From: Maritimibacter alkaliphilus HTCC2654
GTDB taxonomy: Bacteria > Pseudomonadota > Alphaproteobacteria > Rhodobacterales > Rhodobacteraceae
DNA length: 64,000 nucleotides
NCBI RefSeq assembly: GCF_000152805.1
Contig: NZ_CH902578.1
Location: 2,011,834 to 2,075,833 of the forward strand
Direction: 5' to 3'
Shown one piece after another: positions 26,807-35,635 of this stretch (positions are counted from its first letter, which is position 1; every line of letters starts with the position of its first letter). The notes under the pieces were generated by a model. The model saw only the letters and a list, made by a program, of their open reading frames with translations, had not been told where the DNA came from and searched no databases. Position numbers and translations under genes: made by a program.

Positions 26807-26830
26807 GGAAAGTGGCGCGCTGGGGAGGAT
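26807..26830. repeat. Left attachment-site repeat (24 bp)
   Basis: Identical over 24 bases to 35553-35576. The sequence diverges immediately after 26830 (GCCGG here, TCGAA at the tRNA copy), which marks the crossover-side boundary. It lies 24 bp after the TetR stop. Confidence 0.88.
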
Positions 26831-27148: not shown

Positions 27149-27835
27149 GTGGCGGATGGTAAAGAAGCGGCAGAACATCTGTCGCAATTCTTGAACGGGC
27201 AGACCTTTGGCACAGTGATGGCCGATCCGCCTTGGCGCTTCACAAACAGAACGGGCAAGATGGCCCCCGAACACAAACGCCTCGCAAGATATCCAACCTT
27301 GTCCGTTGAGGAAATTTGTGACTTGCCGGTGGCCGAGAACATGGCCGAGCGCTCGCATTGTTACCTGTGGGTTCCAAATGCTTTGTTGCCGGAGGGCCTG
27401 AGGGTTCTTCAAGCGTGGGGATTTGAGTACAAGTCGAACATCGTTTGGCAAAAGGTCCGTAAGGACGGTGGCCCGGATGGTCGAGGTGTGGGTTTCTACT
27501 TCCGTAACGTAACGGAACTACTGCTTTTCGGAGTGCGGGGCAAGAATGCGCGGACCCTCTCTCCGGGCAGACGGCAGGTCAACTACCTCTTGGGCGAAGA
27601 ACCTAATGGACCTGATGGAGATATCCTCAAGACACGCAAGCGAGAGCATAGCCGCAAGCCTGACGAGCAGTACCAGATTATCGAAGAGTGTTCCTGGGGC
27701 CCCTACCTTGAGTTGTTCGGTCGAGGCGTACGTGAGGGCTGGACCGTCTGGGGCAACCAAGCCGATGCAGATTACAAGCCTGATTGGAAGACCTACCCCT
27801 ACAACTCTGGATCAGTCGTCAACGCGGCTGAGTAG
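27149..27835 (+). CDS. MT-A70-family adenine-N6 methyltransferase
   Basis: A 228-residue protein with the catalytic motif D26-P-P-W29 (TVMADPPWRF), the SAM-binding context KSNIVWQKVR and a C-terminal PYLELFGRGVREGWTVWGNQ, which is the family's ELFAR-GW-WG block. MT-A70 enzymes in bacterial islands and phages methylate DNA adenine; an RNA target cannot be excluded from sequence. GTG at 27149 is preceded by AGGGGAG. It is followed closely or overlapped by an HNH nuclease gene, suggesting a modification/restriction pair. It is the first island gene inside the left boundary. Confidence 0.88.
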   Translation: MADGKEAAEHLSQFLNGQTFGTVMADPPWRFTNRTGKMAPEHKRLARYPTLSVEEICDLPVAENMAERSHCYLWVPNALLPEGLRVLQAWGFEYKSNIVWQKVRKDGGPDGRGVGFYFRNVTELLLFGVRGKNARTLSPGRRQVNYLLGEEPNGPDGDILKTRKREHSRKPDEQYQIIEECSWGPYLELFGRGVREGWTVWGNQADADYKPDWKTYPYNSGSVVNAAE

Positions 27836-27860
27836 TCTTAGGAACATTGATAGGATCGCT

Positions 27861-29156
27861 TTGGATTGGAAAACGCTTGAGAGCCGACCAGGCTCATTCT
27901 CAAAGAATTTTGGGTGGGGGGATAAACCCGGTCTCGGCCTACTTCACGAAGCCATCAATGCAATTTTCGCGAGTGGCTTGGAGCCGGTCCCAAGAGACGA
28001 AGCTCGAGAGATAATCGACGCCCTAGCTGACGGCGATCCTCTCGTCCCTCTCAATTTCTTTTTGTACCATCGCGTTATCGATGGGGTTAGCTGCGTTGTG
28101 CCAGATCAACTAGTTGTCGAGGCCCAAGCACGCGACCACGATAAGTCATTTGACCTCCTTGGCATGTGTGCGTTGAATTTTAGCCGGGTCGGTGTTTGGG
28201 AAAGAGCCAGACCATTTCAGAGCCATCCCGCCCCTTGGGCTAGGAGATTTGTCGTAGAAGAAGTGTGGAACGGTACACAGTGGGACACCACCAAGATCAA
28301 CTCCGACACAATCGAGGACTTTCTGAAGGGGAATATGATTTTTGGGGCCGACCGTCCCCGAAAGTTTGCGACAAATCTCAACTACCTCTATCACCACTCC
28401 GGTCTCATCGGAGTCAGAAGTTCTGAGAAAGAAGATTGGTGGGCGAGCGCTGTATTCTTGTTCCTTGATAGGTGCATCATGGACGGCGAACTGGACATCA
28501 ACACACCCGTTACTGATGTTATCGATTTCTTTGAAAAGGAAGACCTATGGGCATTGACTGCAGCTAACCCTCGTTTAGCGAGGTTTGCCGCTCGCCCGAT
28601 AGTGGAAGAATACAAGAACTTACTTGGACTTGAGCGCCTTGGTGAAAAGGCCAATCCACCAAAACCACGAACTCGTTCTGCGAGAACGCCCCTTTCCACG
28701 TCCGCTAGGAGGAAGAAGGCACAGGCCAGAAGGCCCCAGGACCTAGGCATGAACTCCGTTCAGCGAGCGTATGCCCAGGCTCAACGACAAATTCGTAATA
28801 AGCAGCACGCGATGTGGGTCAAAGGCCTATACGGTAACCGTTGCGCAATTTGCGGCAAAGCTCTCGTGATAGATAAGTCTGGCTCGACCTATTCAGAGGC
28901 AGGTCACGTCAAGCCTGTCGGTGATCCATTCAAAGGTCCAGATCACTTCAGCAATATACTGCCTTTCTGCCCCAATCACCACAAAGCCTTCGACCGAGGG
29001 GGAGTGTGGATCGATCCAAACGGTGCAAGTCCACGAGCGATGAGCACGACAAACGACCTGAGCTTTTCAAACCGGCCTATCGACCTAGAAGCTGAGCATG
29101 CCTTTGACCTGACTTTCGCTGAATGGCATGCAAAGTACTTCGGGCACATCAGATAG
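27861..29156 (+). CDS. HNH endonuclease, candidate restriction partner of the MT-A70 enzyme
   Basis: A 431-residue protein from a TTG start at 27861 with AGGA five bases upstream; ATG 27765 is in frame but would overlap the methyltransferase by 71 bp. The N-terminal ~290 residues match no family I recognise (LHEAINAIFASGLEPVPRDEAREIIDALADGDPLVPLNFFLYHR). A basic linker (~270-300) leads to a C-terminal HNH_2-like domain with C328-x2-C331, H349 (EAGHVKP), C370-x2-H373-H374 and D378 (FCPNHHKAFDRGG), a zinc-stabilised beta-beta-alpha-metal fold. Context suggests cleavage of DNA not modified by the upstream methyltransferase, but recognition site and activity are unknown. Confidence 0.78.
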   Translation: MDWKTLESRPGSFSKNFGWGDKPGLGLLHEAINAIFASGLEPVPRDEAREIIDALADGDPLVPLNFFLYHRVIDGVSCVVPDQLVVEAQARDHDKSFDLLGMCALNFSRVGVWERARPFQSHPAPWARRFVVEEVWNGTQWDTTKINSDTIEDFLKGNMIFGADRPRKFATNLNYLYHHSGLIGVRSSEKEDWWASAVFLFLDRCIMDGELDINTPVTDVIDFFEKEDLWALTAANPRLARFAARPIVEEYKNLLGLERLGEKANPPKPRTRSARTPLSTSARRKKAQARRPQDLGMNSVQRAYAQAQRQIRNKQHAMWVKGLYGNRCAICGKALVIDKSGSTYSEAGHVKPVGDPFKGPDHFSNILPFCPNHHKAFDRGGVWIDPNGASPRAMSTTNDLSFSNRPIDLEAEHAFDLTFAEWHAKYFGHIR

Positions 29157-29277: not shown

Positions 29278-29829
29278 TCAGCCGCTGTCACCGGCGATGC
29301 GATACACCGACCTCTCAGAAATCCCCAGGCGCCCTGCAGCCTCCTTTTTTGAAACCCCGTCCGCCAATAACAGGCGCACCTCGTCCGCTTTCTCCATCGC
29401 CGTGGGACGCCGTCCCTTGTACTTTCCCTCCGCTTTTGCCTTTGCAATCCCCTCCCGCTGCCGCTCTAGCATCATTTCCCGTTCAAACTGCGCAACGGAG
29501 CCCAAGACGTTCATCATGAGCTTTCCAGTTGCATTGGACGTATCCAACGCAAGGTCTAGGACCCGAAGGCTCACACCTTTGCCCTCAAGTTCTTCAATCA
29601 ACTCCCCCAAGTGCTTCACCGAGCGAGCCAAGCGGTCCAGCTTAGTCACCACTAGCGTGTCACCTTCCCTAGCGAAGCTTAGAGCCTCTGAGAGCGCCTC
29701 TCGCGCCGCTATAGAGCTAACCTGCTCCTCCCATACCCGCTCGCACCCGAGAGCCCTCAGCGACTCTCTCTGAGCCTCTAGCGATGCCTTCTGTTCCAGG
29801 GTCGATGTCCGTGCATATCCGATCAGCAT
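29278..29829 (-). CDS. Serine recombinase, resolvase/invertase family
   Basis: A 183-residue small serine recombinase. Catalytic Ser9 lies in MLIGYARTSTLEQ. The family motifs LVVTKLDRLARS and GKLMMNVLGSVAQFEREMMLERQREGIAKAKAEGKYKGRRP follow, and a C-terminal Hin-like helix-turn-helix ends the protein (LLADGVSKKEAAGRLGISERSVYRI). Start 29829 has an excellent AGGAGGT site six bases upstream. It resembles transposon resolvases and DNA invertases. No obvious inverted gene segment is nearby, so it may resolve dimers of the element or be a remnant of a nested transposon. Confidence 0.9.
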   Translation of the reverse strand: MLIGYARTSTLEQKASLEAQRESLRALGCERVWEEQVSSIAAREALSEALSFAREGDTLVVTKLDRLARSVKHLGELIEELEGKGVSLRVLDLALDTSNATGKLMMNVLGSVAQFEREMMLERQREGIAKAKAEGKYKGRRPTAMEKADEVRLLLADGVSKKEAAGRLGISERSVYRIAGDSG

Positions 29830-30078
29830 GTCTGACCTCCTGTCTGCCAATGAAGTTTTAGAACTAGGGACAGGTCGTCTGCCAAAAGGCGAAACCCATC
29901 CATCTGGCAGTAATTGCGCCAAGCGCCAGCACCTGACGCATGAGCAAGGTCTATTGGCAGGTGCTCCCAATAATGTTCAAACGCAGCGCTGGGCAGGTTT
30001 GGCCTCGCAGCCGAAAAGTTCTGAGTTATTGATGTCGTCGTGTTAAAGTGAGTTGCTAGGTAAGAGGAGCGCCTCAAG

Positions 30079-31445: not shown

Positions 31446-32369
31446 ATGATGTGTGCCATGGACTTCAAGCCTGAAACAGTGCAGCACCTCCGCCTCGCCT
31501 TCGACAAGGCTCTACAGTCCGGCAAGCTCAACAGCTGGGAGACCCGCTTTGTCTCCGACATGAATGCCAAGTTCGCCCGCTACGGCACCAGGGCCCGACT
31601 GACGGACAAACAAGAGGCGAAGCTTCGCCAGGTCCTTAGGCCCTATATGCAGTCAGAGGCCGAGACAGAGCCGCTGACTGGGGGAGTCAGAACCACGTCT
31701 TCGGGACGGCGGGGCGGGAGGCCAACGCAGAGCCCTTCAGGGCGCCCTCAGAGGGCTAAGAGCGCTCCTTCTAGACCGACCTACCAGAGGTCCTCCAGGC
31801 CCTCTAGGAGGCCCTACAGACGCTACAGGAGCACCCCTTGGCTTCTAAGGATTTGGCGGAGGGATGTCCAAACAGTTTATGTGCTAATGCTCGCCGGTGT
31901 CGTCTGGCTTTTCTCTCAGTTCGACCCGTCTCCAAGCTACCGGCAGCAAGTAACTCCGTCTTCTCCTCAGCGCGTTGGGGCACAAACACTGAGCCTCTCG
32001 GACTTCAGTGTGACAGATGGGGACACGATCCAGCTGAGGGGAAGATCGACCGGAACGCGATTGGTGGGCTTCAACACCCCAGAGACCTTCAATCCGGTAT
32101 GTGACAGAGGCTATGCGCTGGGCCTTCAGGCAACAGCGAGGCTCAAAGACCTTGTCCAAGCCGCATCTGCTATCGAGCTTCAGATTGTTGCCTGCGCCTG
32201 CAAGCCTGGGACCCAAGGCACGAGCAGATGCAACTTTGGGCGTTCGTGTGGTATCCTTAAGGTGGATGGAAGGGATGTCGGACAGACTCTGATTTCTGAG
32301 GGACTGGCAGCGCCTTTCAACTGCGGTCGGACAACCTGCCCCCCAACGCCAAGGCCCTGGTGCCAGTAA
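31446..32369 (+). CDS. Membrane-anchored SNase-like (thermonuclease-fold) protein
   Basis: A 307-residue protein. Residues 5-65 form a small helical domain (FKPETVQHLRLAFDKALQSGKLNSWETRF). Residues 80-130 are Arg/Ser/Pro-rich and disordered, and a single transmembrane helix spans ~143-157 (TVYVLMLAGVVWLFSQF). A staphylococcal-nuclease-like domain follows (~180-295): DGDT at 191-194, R205, N210 where nucleases have the metal-binding Asp, E213, R266 and GRDVGQTLISEGLA. The Asp-to-Asn change and several cysteines set it apart. The nuclease domain would face the periplasm. The start could also be Met5 (31458); no clear ribosome site is visible for either. Confidence 0.72.
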   Translation: MMCAMDFKPETVQHLRLAFDKALQSGKLNSWETRFVSDMNAKFARYGTRARLTDKQEAKLRQVLRPYMQSEAETEPLTGGVRTTSSGRRGGRPTQSPSGRPQRAKSAPSRPTYQRSSRPSRRPYRRYRSTPWLLRIWRRDVQTVYVLMLAGVVWLFSQFDPSPSYRQQVTPSSPQRVGAQTLSLSDFSVTDGDTIQLRGRSTGTRLVGFNTPETFNPVCDRGYALGLQATARLKDLVQAASAIELQIVACACKPGTQGTSRCNFGRSCGILKVDGRDVGQTLISEGLAAPFNCGRTTCPPTPRPWCQ

Positions 32370-34102: not shown

Positions 34103-35479
34103 TCAGACGCCATCCCAAAAACTTTGATCGACGATCTTCTGCATCCAATCTCGTCTGACCTCTAGGCTATGTCCGTGGCCATATCGCTGACCAACGCTCT
34201 TCAACGACCACCCACCGATCCGATCGATGAGCTCCTCAGGAGCGTTCCTGTTACGCAAGCGATCTCGCATCGAATGGCGGAGTGATTGGTTGTTCTTCCC
34301 AACTAGTCCGATGCTCTGATAGTTTTGCCTCAGGGTGTTAGACGCGCTTTTCGCTCGAACAGTCTGGTCGTCCTTGCCAATGTATCGCTCAAAGACGTAC
34401 TCACCGAATTGAGAAGTCGAATGAATTCGCTTCGCTGCCCAAAGAGCACTCCCTACCAGAGGTACAGCTCGGACAGAAGCTGCGGTCTTTAGCCTGCGGC
34501 CCTCGTGCACCATGACGTCCACGAACGGCACTGGCGATGAAAGGTTGATATCTTCTGGCTTCAAGCCACACCCTTCGGCCAGCCTCATGCCTGTGTCGGC
34601 CAACAATGCAATCAGCCAACGAATGTCGTCATCTTTCTCAACACAAAATGCATAAAGGGTTCGCAACTCCCTTTGGTCCAGCACTTCGACCTTCTTGGCA
34701 TCCTGGCCTAGCCCCGGCACTCTAAGGCTTTCGAACACGTTTTTGATGTCCAGTTCATTCTCCCGGATACATGTGGCGAACACCGGGCTTATGTAGTTCA
34801 GATATCGCTTGGCAGTCGTGGTCTTGACGCCCCTCGAGAGCAGCAACTTCAAGAAGTCCCTGGCTTGCTCTCTTGTATAGCCGCTAATTGGTCGGTCACC
34901 GGCGAACTCGACAAATCGATTCACAGCCCTCCAGCGAGACACGCTGCCTTTCGACCCGGCAAGCTCGCCGCAGACTTCTTGGTGCAATTGAACAGCTTCA
35001 CTGAGGAATGGGACATTTTTCTTGTTTCCGAAGAACAGGTCTGCGGCAAACGCAGCTCCAGGTGGGAGGTCTTCGTAATCGATCTGACCCTCTTCACCGC
35101 CCGAAAGGAGGGAAAGCCGATTCAAAAAATCTTCAGGTTCGATACCGACGCGGCGATACTCGTCTGCTTGCCCCGGCTTTAGTCCGTAGGCTTCCAGCAT
35201 TGCACGTCCTGCAGCAACTGCTTCAGGGCCAACAGGAAGTCTGCCTTCTCGGTGAGCTCGCCACATCGCGTCTTGCTGTAAAGCGAAACTGTGAGCAAGG
35301 CGTGCCGCCTCAACGTCATTGGAAGTACCAAGCGAGAAGAAGAGCTCCGCTTTTCTCTTCGGGTATAGAGCGCGAACGTCAGATGGCACTCGACGGCGAA
35401 AATACCAGACATTGCCCTTCTTCTGGAGATGCTTTGCTTTCAAGGAGAGCGCTCCTGAGTCGTAGAGTATCAGCGTCAT
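34103..35479 (-). CDS. int: Tyrosine-recombinase integrase of the island
   Basis: A 458-residue site-specific recombinase. The N-terminal arm-binding region (~12-70) reads LQKKGNVWYFRRRVPSDVRALYPKRKAELFFSLGTSN. The SAM-like core-binding domain follows (~155-250). The catalytic domain shows R299 (DTGMRLAEGCGL), H402-x2-R405 (LRHSMRDRL), W424 in the HIS-box position (GGWSLKSVGQRYGHG) and nucleophile Y433. It is placed 80 bp from tRNA-Arg and should integrate the island by recombination at the tRNA 3' end. Tandem TGTGTNACCT repeats sit directly upstream of its start codon, so it may repress its own transcription. No excisionase is apparent. Confidence 0.93.
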   Translation of the reverse strand: MTLILYDSGALSLKAKHLQKKGNVWYFRRRVPSDVRALYPKRKAELFFSLGTSNDVEAARLAHSFALQQDAMWRAHREGRLPVGPEAVAAGRAMLEAYGLKPGQADEYRRVGIEPEDFLNRLSLLSGGEEGQIDYEDLPPGAAFAADLFFGNKKNVPFLSEAVQLHQEVCGELAGSKGSVSRWRAVNRFVEFAGDRPISGYTREQARDFLKLLLSRGVKTTTAKRYLNYISPVFATCIRENELDIKNVFESLRVPGLGQDAKKVEVLDQRELRTLYAFCVEKDDDIRWLIALLADTGMRLAEGCGLKPEDINLSSPVPFVDVMVHEGRRLKTAASVRAVPLVGSALWAAKRIHSTSQFGEYVFERYIGKDDQTVRAKSASNTLRQNYQSIGLVGKNNQSLRHSMRDRLRNRNAPEELIDRIGGWSLKSVGQRYGHGHSLEVRRDWMQKIVDQSFWDGV

Positions 35480-35552: not shown

Positions 35553-35576
35553 GGAAAGTGGCGCGCTGGGGAGGAT
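35553..35576. repeat. Right attachment-site repeat (24 bp, inside tRNA-Arg 3' end)
   Basis: Identical to 26807-26830. Bases 35559-35576 are the tRNA 3' end including CCA; 35553-35558 lie beyond it. Because the tRNA is restored intact on this side, gene function survives integration. Confidence 0.88.
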
Positions 35577-35635
35577 TCGAACCCCCGACCCCTTGATTCG
35601 TAGTCAAGTACTCTATCCAACTGAGCTACCAGCGC
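35559..35635 (-). tRNA. tRNA-Arg (anticodon ACG)
   Basis: Read on the minus strand this is a 77-base cloverleaf. Acceptor GCGCTGG/CCAGCGC has discriminator G and an encoded CCA. The D arm is GCTC-AGTTGGATA-GAGT, the anticodon stem CTTGA/TCAAG has loop CTACGAA (anticodon ACG, normally edited to ICG), and the T arm is GGGGG-TTCGAAT-CCTCC with one G-U pair. It decodes CGU/CGC/CGA. Its 3' end is the island integration site. Confidence 0.97.

Follow-up and report, generated by a model that had tools for sequence, protein, structure and literature searches.

Type II restriction-modification systems with MT-A70-related methyltransferases are already known. An example is M.MunI (see the reference to Bujnicki 2002). 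According to PMC2630997, M.MunI is a beta-class N-methyltransferase related to MT-A70, and it works in a type II setting. The methyltransferase studied here is its homologue within the same broad family, and the comparison is made at that level. In BglII/BstYI restriction-modification systems, including the locus of Mesorhizobium phage Lo5R7ANS, close MT-A70 relatives (64-69%) are located directly beside the endonucleases in phage and plasmid records. A BglII/BstYI-type system (RMC) of A. baumannii A118 makes m6A in RGATCY, as described in PMC10287943. The term MT-A70 is not applied to its methyltransferase there (0 occurrences), and we liken the systems by description, not by sequence. They resemble each other in the GATC core of the target, which is a prediction for our locus. 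However, the system in the window (the whole 64,000-nucleotide stretch of DNA analyzed) has no BglII-type endonuclease and uses an N-terminal domain (N-domain) joined to an HNH domain.

The TagI and ScoMcrA-type enzymes share this C-terminal HNH domain, with matching catalytic and zinc residues in the comparison with TagI. These enzymes recognize DNA through SRA or sulphur-binding domains and cleave it when it is modified, whereas the window protein has an unrelated putative reader and an adjacent methyltransferase. The 6mA-dependent fusion endonucleases with a winged helix (wH), as presented in PMC11037411, also join a reader and an HNH domain in one chain, and the first ~90 residues of our models are winged-helix-like. 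Unlike them, the N-domain has no sequence match to winged-helix families, and nearly all of our loci include a gene for a methyltransferase.

We found that the window carries an MT-A70 methyltransferase gene followed by a gene for a 431-residue protein, which begins 25 bp past the methyltransferase stop codon (Table 1). The original prediction had described this arrangement, a DPPW-bearing MT-A70 enzyme and then, within 26 bp, a 431-residue protein with a C-terminal HNH_2-like nuclease, and the ORFs, profile matches and 25-bp gap confirm it. The methyltransferase matched Pfam MT-A70 (PF05063) above the curated cut-off (E 2.7e-27; 96.2 bits against 23.9) and over the complete profile (positions 1-172 of 172), making it a member of this family. 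It also matched the PADLOC type II methyltransferase model MTase_II (E 4.4e-86). The alignment showed an intact DPPW motif and a KREHSRKPDE stretch. The earlier claim that classical type II systems use other methyltransferase classes is contradicted by the homologue M.MunI, the MTase_II match and the relatives beside BglII/BstYI endonucleases.

Table 1. Coordinates of the features in the window and of related loci (L numbers are our locus labels)
Feature	Position or locus	Strand	Evidence or remark
MT-A70 adenine DNA methyltransferase (putative DNA substrate), 228 aa, GTG start	27149-27835	+	Pfam MT-A70, PADLOC MTase_II
Putative restriction endonuclease, 431 aa, TTG start	27861-29156	+	ORF; full-length homologues in L002, L021
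N-terminal domain, residues 1-260, undescribed family, putative DNA reader	27861-28640	+	33-39% identical to stand-alone proteins (354-365 residues)
C-terminal TagI-like HNH nuclease region, approx. residues 299-431	28755-29153	+	HNH_2 2.4e-8; TagI 6ghs
att repeat, left island end, 24 bp	26807-26830	.	exact direct repeat of 35553-35576
att repeat, right island end, 24 bp	35553-35576	.	overlaps 3' end of tRNA-Arg
tRNA-Arg (acg), integration site	35559-35635	-	ARAGORN
Tyrosine integrase of island	34103-35479	-	Phage_integrase E 1.5e-14; phrog_1 integrase E 5.6e-36
Serine recombinase (resolvase) near cassette, window	29278-29853	-	
Serine recombinases (resolvases) near cassettes	L003:3552-4091; L004:4312-4869; L016:4121-4657; L024:4479-5165; L027:1443-2021		
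HNH-fused N-domain loci (3)	window, L002, L021		
Unfused N-domain loci (9)	L003, L004/L022, L005, L015, L016, L017, L018, L019, L020		
MT-A70 directly upstream of N-domain gene	window, L002, L021, L015, L016, L018, L019		
MT-A70 third gene downstream, other strand	L003, L022, L005, L017		

HNH_2, at residues 328-381, was the only above-cut-off match of the 431-residue protein. By sequence, the closest solved relative of the HNH region is the HNH domain of TagI (E 4.4e-13), and the HNH and zinc residues are kept (C328, C331, H349, N365, C370, H374, D378). PMC6212794 reports that Asn245 and His254 of the TagI HNH motif are essential and that Asp258 appears to bind metal. The partners of these residues in the window protein are N365, H374 and D378. 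As judged from the sequence, the second protein has a nuclease domain with intact active-site residues. In the Pfam search it did not match PF09195 (Endonuc-BglII), which the endonuclease of L005 does match, indicating that the protein stands outside the BglII/BstYI systems, although its methyltransferase is akin to theirs.

The start of the nuclease gene had been given as either the TTG codon or a 71-bp overlap with the methyltransferase gene. We found that the nuclease begins with LDW at a TTG codon in 3/3 copies (window, L002, L021). Two in-frame stop codons lie directly before this TTG in L021, and one lies within 15 codons upstream of it in L002. The conserved TTG and the in-frame upstream stops settle the start, so that the TTG stands and the overlapping ATG is ruled out. 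With the overlap removed, the suggestion that nuclease synthesis is coupled to methyltransferase translation through an overlapping start is not supported either. Retention of the TTG at 63-69% protein identity may hold nuclease synthesis low.

The GC content drops from ~0.65 to 0.52-0.56 across 27-35 kb of the window, and the tyrosine integrase gene is located just inside the right att repeat. The 24-bp att repeats, the overlap with tRNA-Arg and the integrase define an 8.8-kb integrative island in which the gene pair forms the outermost part of the cargo. No near-identical copy of the island was found among the plasmid records. One ORF of the island (31446-32369, + strand) is weakly similar to thermonucleases/SNases (E 0.028 in NCBIfam and E 0.002 for PADLOC SNc+LTD).

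The pair is present in two other genomes, L002 (G333, which carries the same proteins and was counted once) and L021 (G236). Their nucleases are 62-64% identical to that of the window, and the methyltransferases are 78-79% identical in L002 (79%) and L014/L021. A protein search of genome contigs gave L002 as the one full-length nuclease relative (62% over residues 1-430); its MT-A70 gene lies immediately upstream. Gene order, the TTG and a spacing of 22-32 bp are the same in the three diverged genomes, while the flanks differ: the window pair lies in the island, the L002 pair next to genes for a DndB/DpdB-like protein and a D12 adenine methylase, and the L021 pair among unrelated genes. These are adjacent methyltransferase and endonuclease genes inherited together, as in a type II restriction-modification system. 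We also considered a typical phage gene pair and rejected this idea, as none of 50,697 phage records held a nuclease relative, although five viral contigs carry the N-domain. Repeating the viral scan with a broader alignment gave these five N-domain loci again and no others.

To define the N-domain family, we used 12 distinct complete loci, with identical proteins counted once. The L003 protein is also found in a Yoonia plasmid, and the L005 protein is identical in three more records; two Sphingomonas plasmids were left out as they hold fragments only (23-33% of the query). The N-domain is fused to HNH in three loci and separate in nine. A PIN-domain gene follows the separate N-domain gene in 9/9 cases, overlapping or nearly so, and the PIN protein, aligned across all nine, matches PF01850. 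A BglII/BstYI-family endonuclease is present in 5/12 loci (L003, L022, L005, L017, L018), all of them PIN-bearing, and no BglII gene was found in the locus DNA of the other four PIN loci (L015, L016, L019, L020). The N-domain is thus an exchangeable module, joined to HNH in cis or accompanied by PIN.

In 11/12 loci (10/12 with an intact DPPW), the N-domain gene has an MT-A70 gene no more than three genes away; the count is 10/11 without the window, whose pair drew attention first. The background frequency is 18 MT-A70 genes in 100 family genomes. The conserved co-occurrence of the two families, proposed earlier as a check, is therefore borne out both by the pair in two more genomes and by this count. 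In L020, no MT-A70 gene was found in the 14 kb around the N-domain and PIN genes, and a C5 methylase gene lies ~2.6 kb away. The MT-A70 protein beside the N-domain and PIN genes in L019 (L019:5382-5915) has lost DPPW (ARPPW) and is a possible pseudo-methyltransferase.

The family is rare. A profile search of 394 family genomes matched four (the window's own, G333, G236 and G158), and the window's own was alone among the 385 class and 398 phylum genomes sampled beyond the family. In L015 (L015:1181-8602), the MT-A70, N-domain and PIN genes are flanked by tail protein genes on one side and by the repressor gene on the other, in a phage or prophage, where defence cargo could plausibly sit. The N-terminal region of the nuclease had been called unrecognised, and this description holds for residues 1-260: none of the 12 members gave a usable family match in Pfam, NCBIfam or PHROGs, nor did the members tested in PADLOC. 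The best stray PHROG match had an E-value of 0.0077 over 26 residues of one member. The N-domain profile gave nothing convincing against PDB chains, and no antitoxin family was matched in the Pfam, NCBIfam and PADLOC comparisons. The PADLOC version used models the methyltransferase, and none of its models matched the nuclease or N-domain proteins tested.

Furthermore, we examined predicted structures. AlphaFold2 gave a pLDDT of 86.6 and a pTM of 0.88 for the L017 protein with seven alignment rows, and a pLDDT of 56.0 for the window protein, whose model is fair only in the N-domain; its HNH half is poor (about 30-45) because only two rows cover it. Foldseek found no significant match for either model in the PDB (best E 0.47 and 2.2) or among viral models. 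In the VIA comparison, the top five entries for the L017 model were all Nt.BspD6I (Z 4.9-5.3; 159-172 residues, model 3-245 against chain 1-303). The window model looks like winged helices over residues 18-99 (highest Z 6.6), and its neighbors include the BpuJI recognition domain (Z 4.6-4.8). All structural Z scores are below 8, within the range that unrelated proteins give, and the resemblance to the Nt.BspD6I and BpuJI recognition domains, which are nearest to the L017 model and also occur among the neighbors of the window model (Z 4.6-5.3), is non-significant at 9-10% identity. The nuclease folds of Nt.BspD6I and BpuJI are PD-(D/E)XK or PLD-like, versus HNH or PIN in the N-domain systems. 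No winged-helix Pfam family was matched by the 12 members at E<=10. The models weakly suggest that the N-domain is a winged-helix DNA reader, nearest to the recognition domains of restriction enzymes. The original prediction that the N-terminal region could read DNA is thus weakly supported by these structural resemblances (Z < 8).

Methyltransferase relatives with an identity of 60% or more stand apart as a group, which comprises 17 of 53 plasmid records and 5 of 29 phage records. Among 12 of these 17 plasmid records, a BglII/BstYI endonuclease lies beside the methyltransferase in seven and an AAA ATPase gene in four; one, a Deinococcus plasmid, has neither in the part seen. Two of the five phage records were examined, one with a BglII-type gene and the other with a second methyltransferase. 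The records with the AAA ATPase gene adjoining the same MT-A70 clade include actinobacterial plasmids (L028-L031). In the one tested, from Kocuria (L029), the neighbors match AAA_5 and McrBC (PF10117), and a pairing of MT-A70 with McrBC-like genes seems to exist. The Alloyangia relative (49.8%) has lost DPPW and looks dead, and an MT-A70 homologue in L034 (L034:2995-3540) has DPF instead of DPPW, a possible pseudo-methyltransferase. In the methyltransferase tree, 10/19 inner branches are open, and we make no claim from its branching.

The methyltransferases of the window and of L018, an N-domain, PIN and BglII/BstYI locus, are 77% identical with an insertion at the same place in both, and their N-domains are only 34% identical. 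The window enzyme is about equally close to the enzymes of the other HNH loci (78-79%). This observation indicates that one methyltransferase lineage serves both nuclease kinds. If a methyltransferase protects in both settings, a single target is to be expected. The m6A product of the A118 system in RGATCY was noted above; PMC6256690 and PMC3459991 describe some other RGATCY enzymes as m4C, so that the target of the window methyltransferase has to be predicted. The likeliest candidate is RGATCY, or else a different hexamer built on GATC.

To look for traces of such a target, we compared observed and expected RGATCY counts by a maximal-order Markov model in sampled 20-kb stretches of 17 family genomes, with kinship ignored. 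The pair-bearing genomes had the three lowest ratios (G236, 0.47; G000, 0.49; G333, 0.53), and the 14 control genomes ranged from 0.56 to 1.04 (0.56-0.79 in 12/14), a margin over the next genomes of about one standard error. Among 32 palindrome classes, only RGATCY and YGATCR place the three pair-bearing genomes lowest, and YGATCR was not predicted. The RGATCY share among GATC sites does not set the pair-bearing genomes apart (0.065-0.079, against 0.074 in G379, 0.078 in G077 and 0.079 in G062 and G020). The avoidance is family-wide, and the extra depletion in pair-bearing genomes is small. RGATCY avoidance in most control genomes (loci L075-L152) suggests long exposure to such restriction enzymes. 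The island has zero RGATCY sites where 5.1 are expected from its composition, an observation dropped as not significant given the genome-wide avoidance. Module exchange and RGATCY avoidance bear only indirectly on whether the methyltransferase and the nuclease would act on one sequence, with methylation blocking the cut.

We thus observed a conserved pair with intact catalytic motifs, a mobile setting and module exchange. In our judgment, the two genes probably make up a compact restriction-modification system of a type II-like kind, with exchangeable nucleases, that travels as island cargo. The L020 locus with no MT-A70 gene found in its 14 kb, the lost DPPW of L019 and the AAA ATPase neighbors of the same methyltransferase clade weigh against this reading. 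The MT-A70 enzyme would methylate adenine in a short palindrome, RGATCY or another GATC-core hexamer. The second protein would bind the same site through its N-terminal domain, and the HNH domain would cut unmethylated DNA, probably as a dimer, in or near the site. Where the reader is a separate protein, as in related systems, its partner would be a PIN-domain protein, in some cases along with a BglII/BstYI endonuclease. The conserved TTG probably limits nuclease synthesis. PIN proteins are best known for RNA cutting. More tentatively, and with the balance of our judgment against it, the N-domain could be a new sequence-reading module joined to interchangeable cutters, HNH in cis or a PIN nuclease in trans. 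The PIN protein would then supply the DNA cutting or the abortive function in restriction systems organized around one mobile RGATCY methyltransferase.

We know of no type II endonuclease built as an N-domain joined to HNH. The open-access literature searched held no description of a system of MT-A70 with HNH or with BglII, nor of the N-domain itself or its architecture with HNH, and the swapping of nucleases on a reader domain appears to be undescribed. Should the reading as a type II-like system hold, restriction enzymes would gain a DNA-reading family that appears to be undescribed. One methyltransferase lineage common to systems with different nucleases would then help to explain how restriction enzymes acquire new cutting domains, and the target would have been predicted ahead of any experiment.

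We weighed this reading against others. The HNH domain is closest to that of TagI, an SRA-HNH modification-dependent enzyme, and to the NCBIfam phosphorothioate-dependent enzyme model, though far below the cut-off of that model. Winged helices serve as 6mA sensors in fusion nucleases, including wH-HNH forms (PMC11037411). The window protein could accordingly be a type IV-like nuclease whose N-domain senses a foreign base modification and whose HNH domain cuts, next to a methyltransferase that marks a non-conflicting site. However, no SRA, EVE/PUA or sulphur-binding domain was found in the window or L021 protein or in the N-domains of the window, L002 and L021. A DpnI-like 6mA sensor would also destroy its own host if the methyltransferase marks a GATC core. 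In addition, PMC11037411 reports no methyltransferase within three genes for 87% of >1,000 wH fusion genes, the opposite of the 11/12 loci here that have one, which makes this modification-dependent reading less likely; we consider it improbable.

The PIN-bearing relatives raise a different question. The N-domain could be a DNA-binding antitoxin or a sensor that restrains a PIN (VapC-like) or fused HNH nuclease until the restriction system is disturbed, in a toxin-antitoxin or abortive-infection guard. VapBC operons have the same gene order as the PIN/VapC-like gene behind the N-domain gene in 9/12 loci. As a BglII/BstYI endonuclease is already present in five loci, the role of the N-domain/PIN pair may be a different one in these. 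But the HNH copies join the nuclease and the N-domain in one chain, which gives no separable antitoxin, and have no other endonuclease gene directly beside the methyltransferase; the absence of a BglII gene from the locus DNA of the four PIN loci named above also weighs against a guard. Such a role is possible for the PIN-bearing relatives and less so for the fused HNH form, and as an account of the whole we rate it as improbable, too. The least credible account is that a stand-alone MT-A70 enzyme, orphan or RNA-modifying, and an unrelated HNH protein were inserted together in the island. In its favor, islands collect genes of unrelated function, phages have MT-A70 enzymes as well, and some members of this enzyme family methylate RNA. 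The same order, spacing and TTG in three diverged genomes with different flanks speak against it. By our own estimate, with about 4,000 genes and ~0.18 MT-A70 genes per genome, adjacency to one of them has a chance of ~1e-4. The conserved pairing largely refutes chance neighborhood, which we regard as very improbable.

Other genes are found near these cassettes. A DGQHR-domain gene with a small partner gene stands beside both the HNH-type L002 (L002:6387-8076; DndB/DpdB-like) and the PIN-type L005 (L005:3048-4753) loci. Small serine recombinase (resolvase) genes also recur near the MT-A70/nuclease cassettes (Table 1) and are perhaps linked to their mobility.
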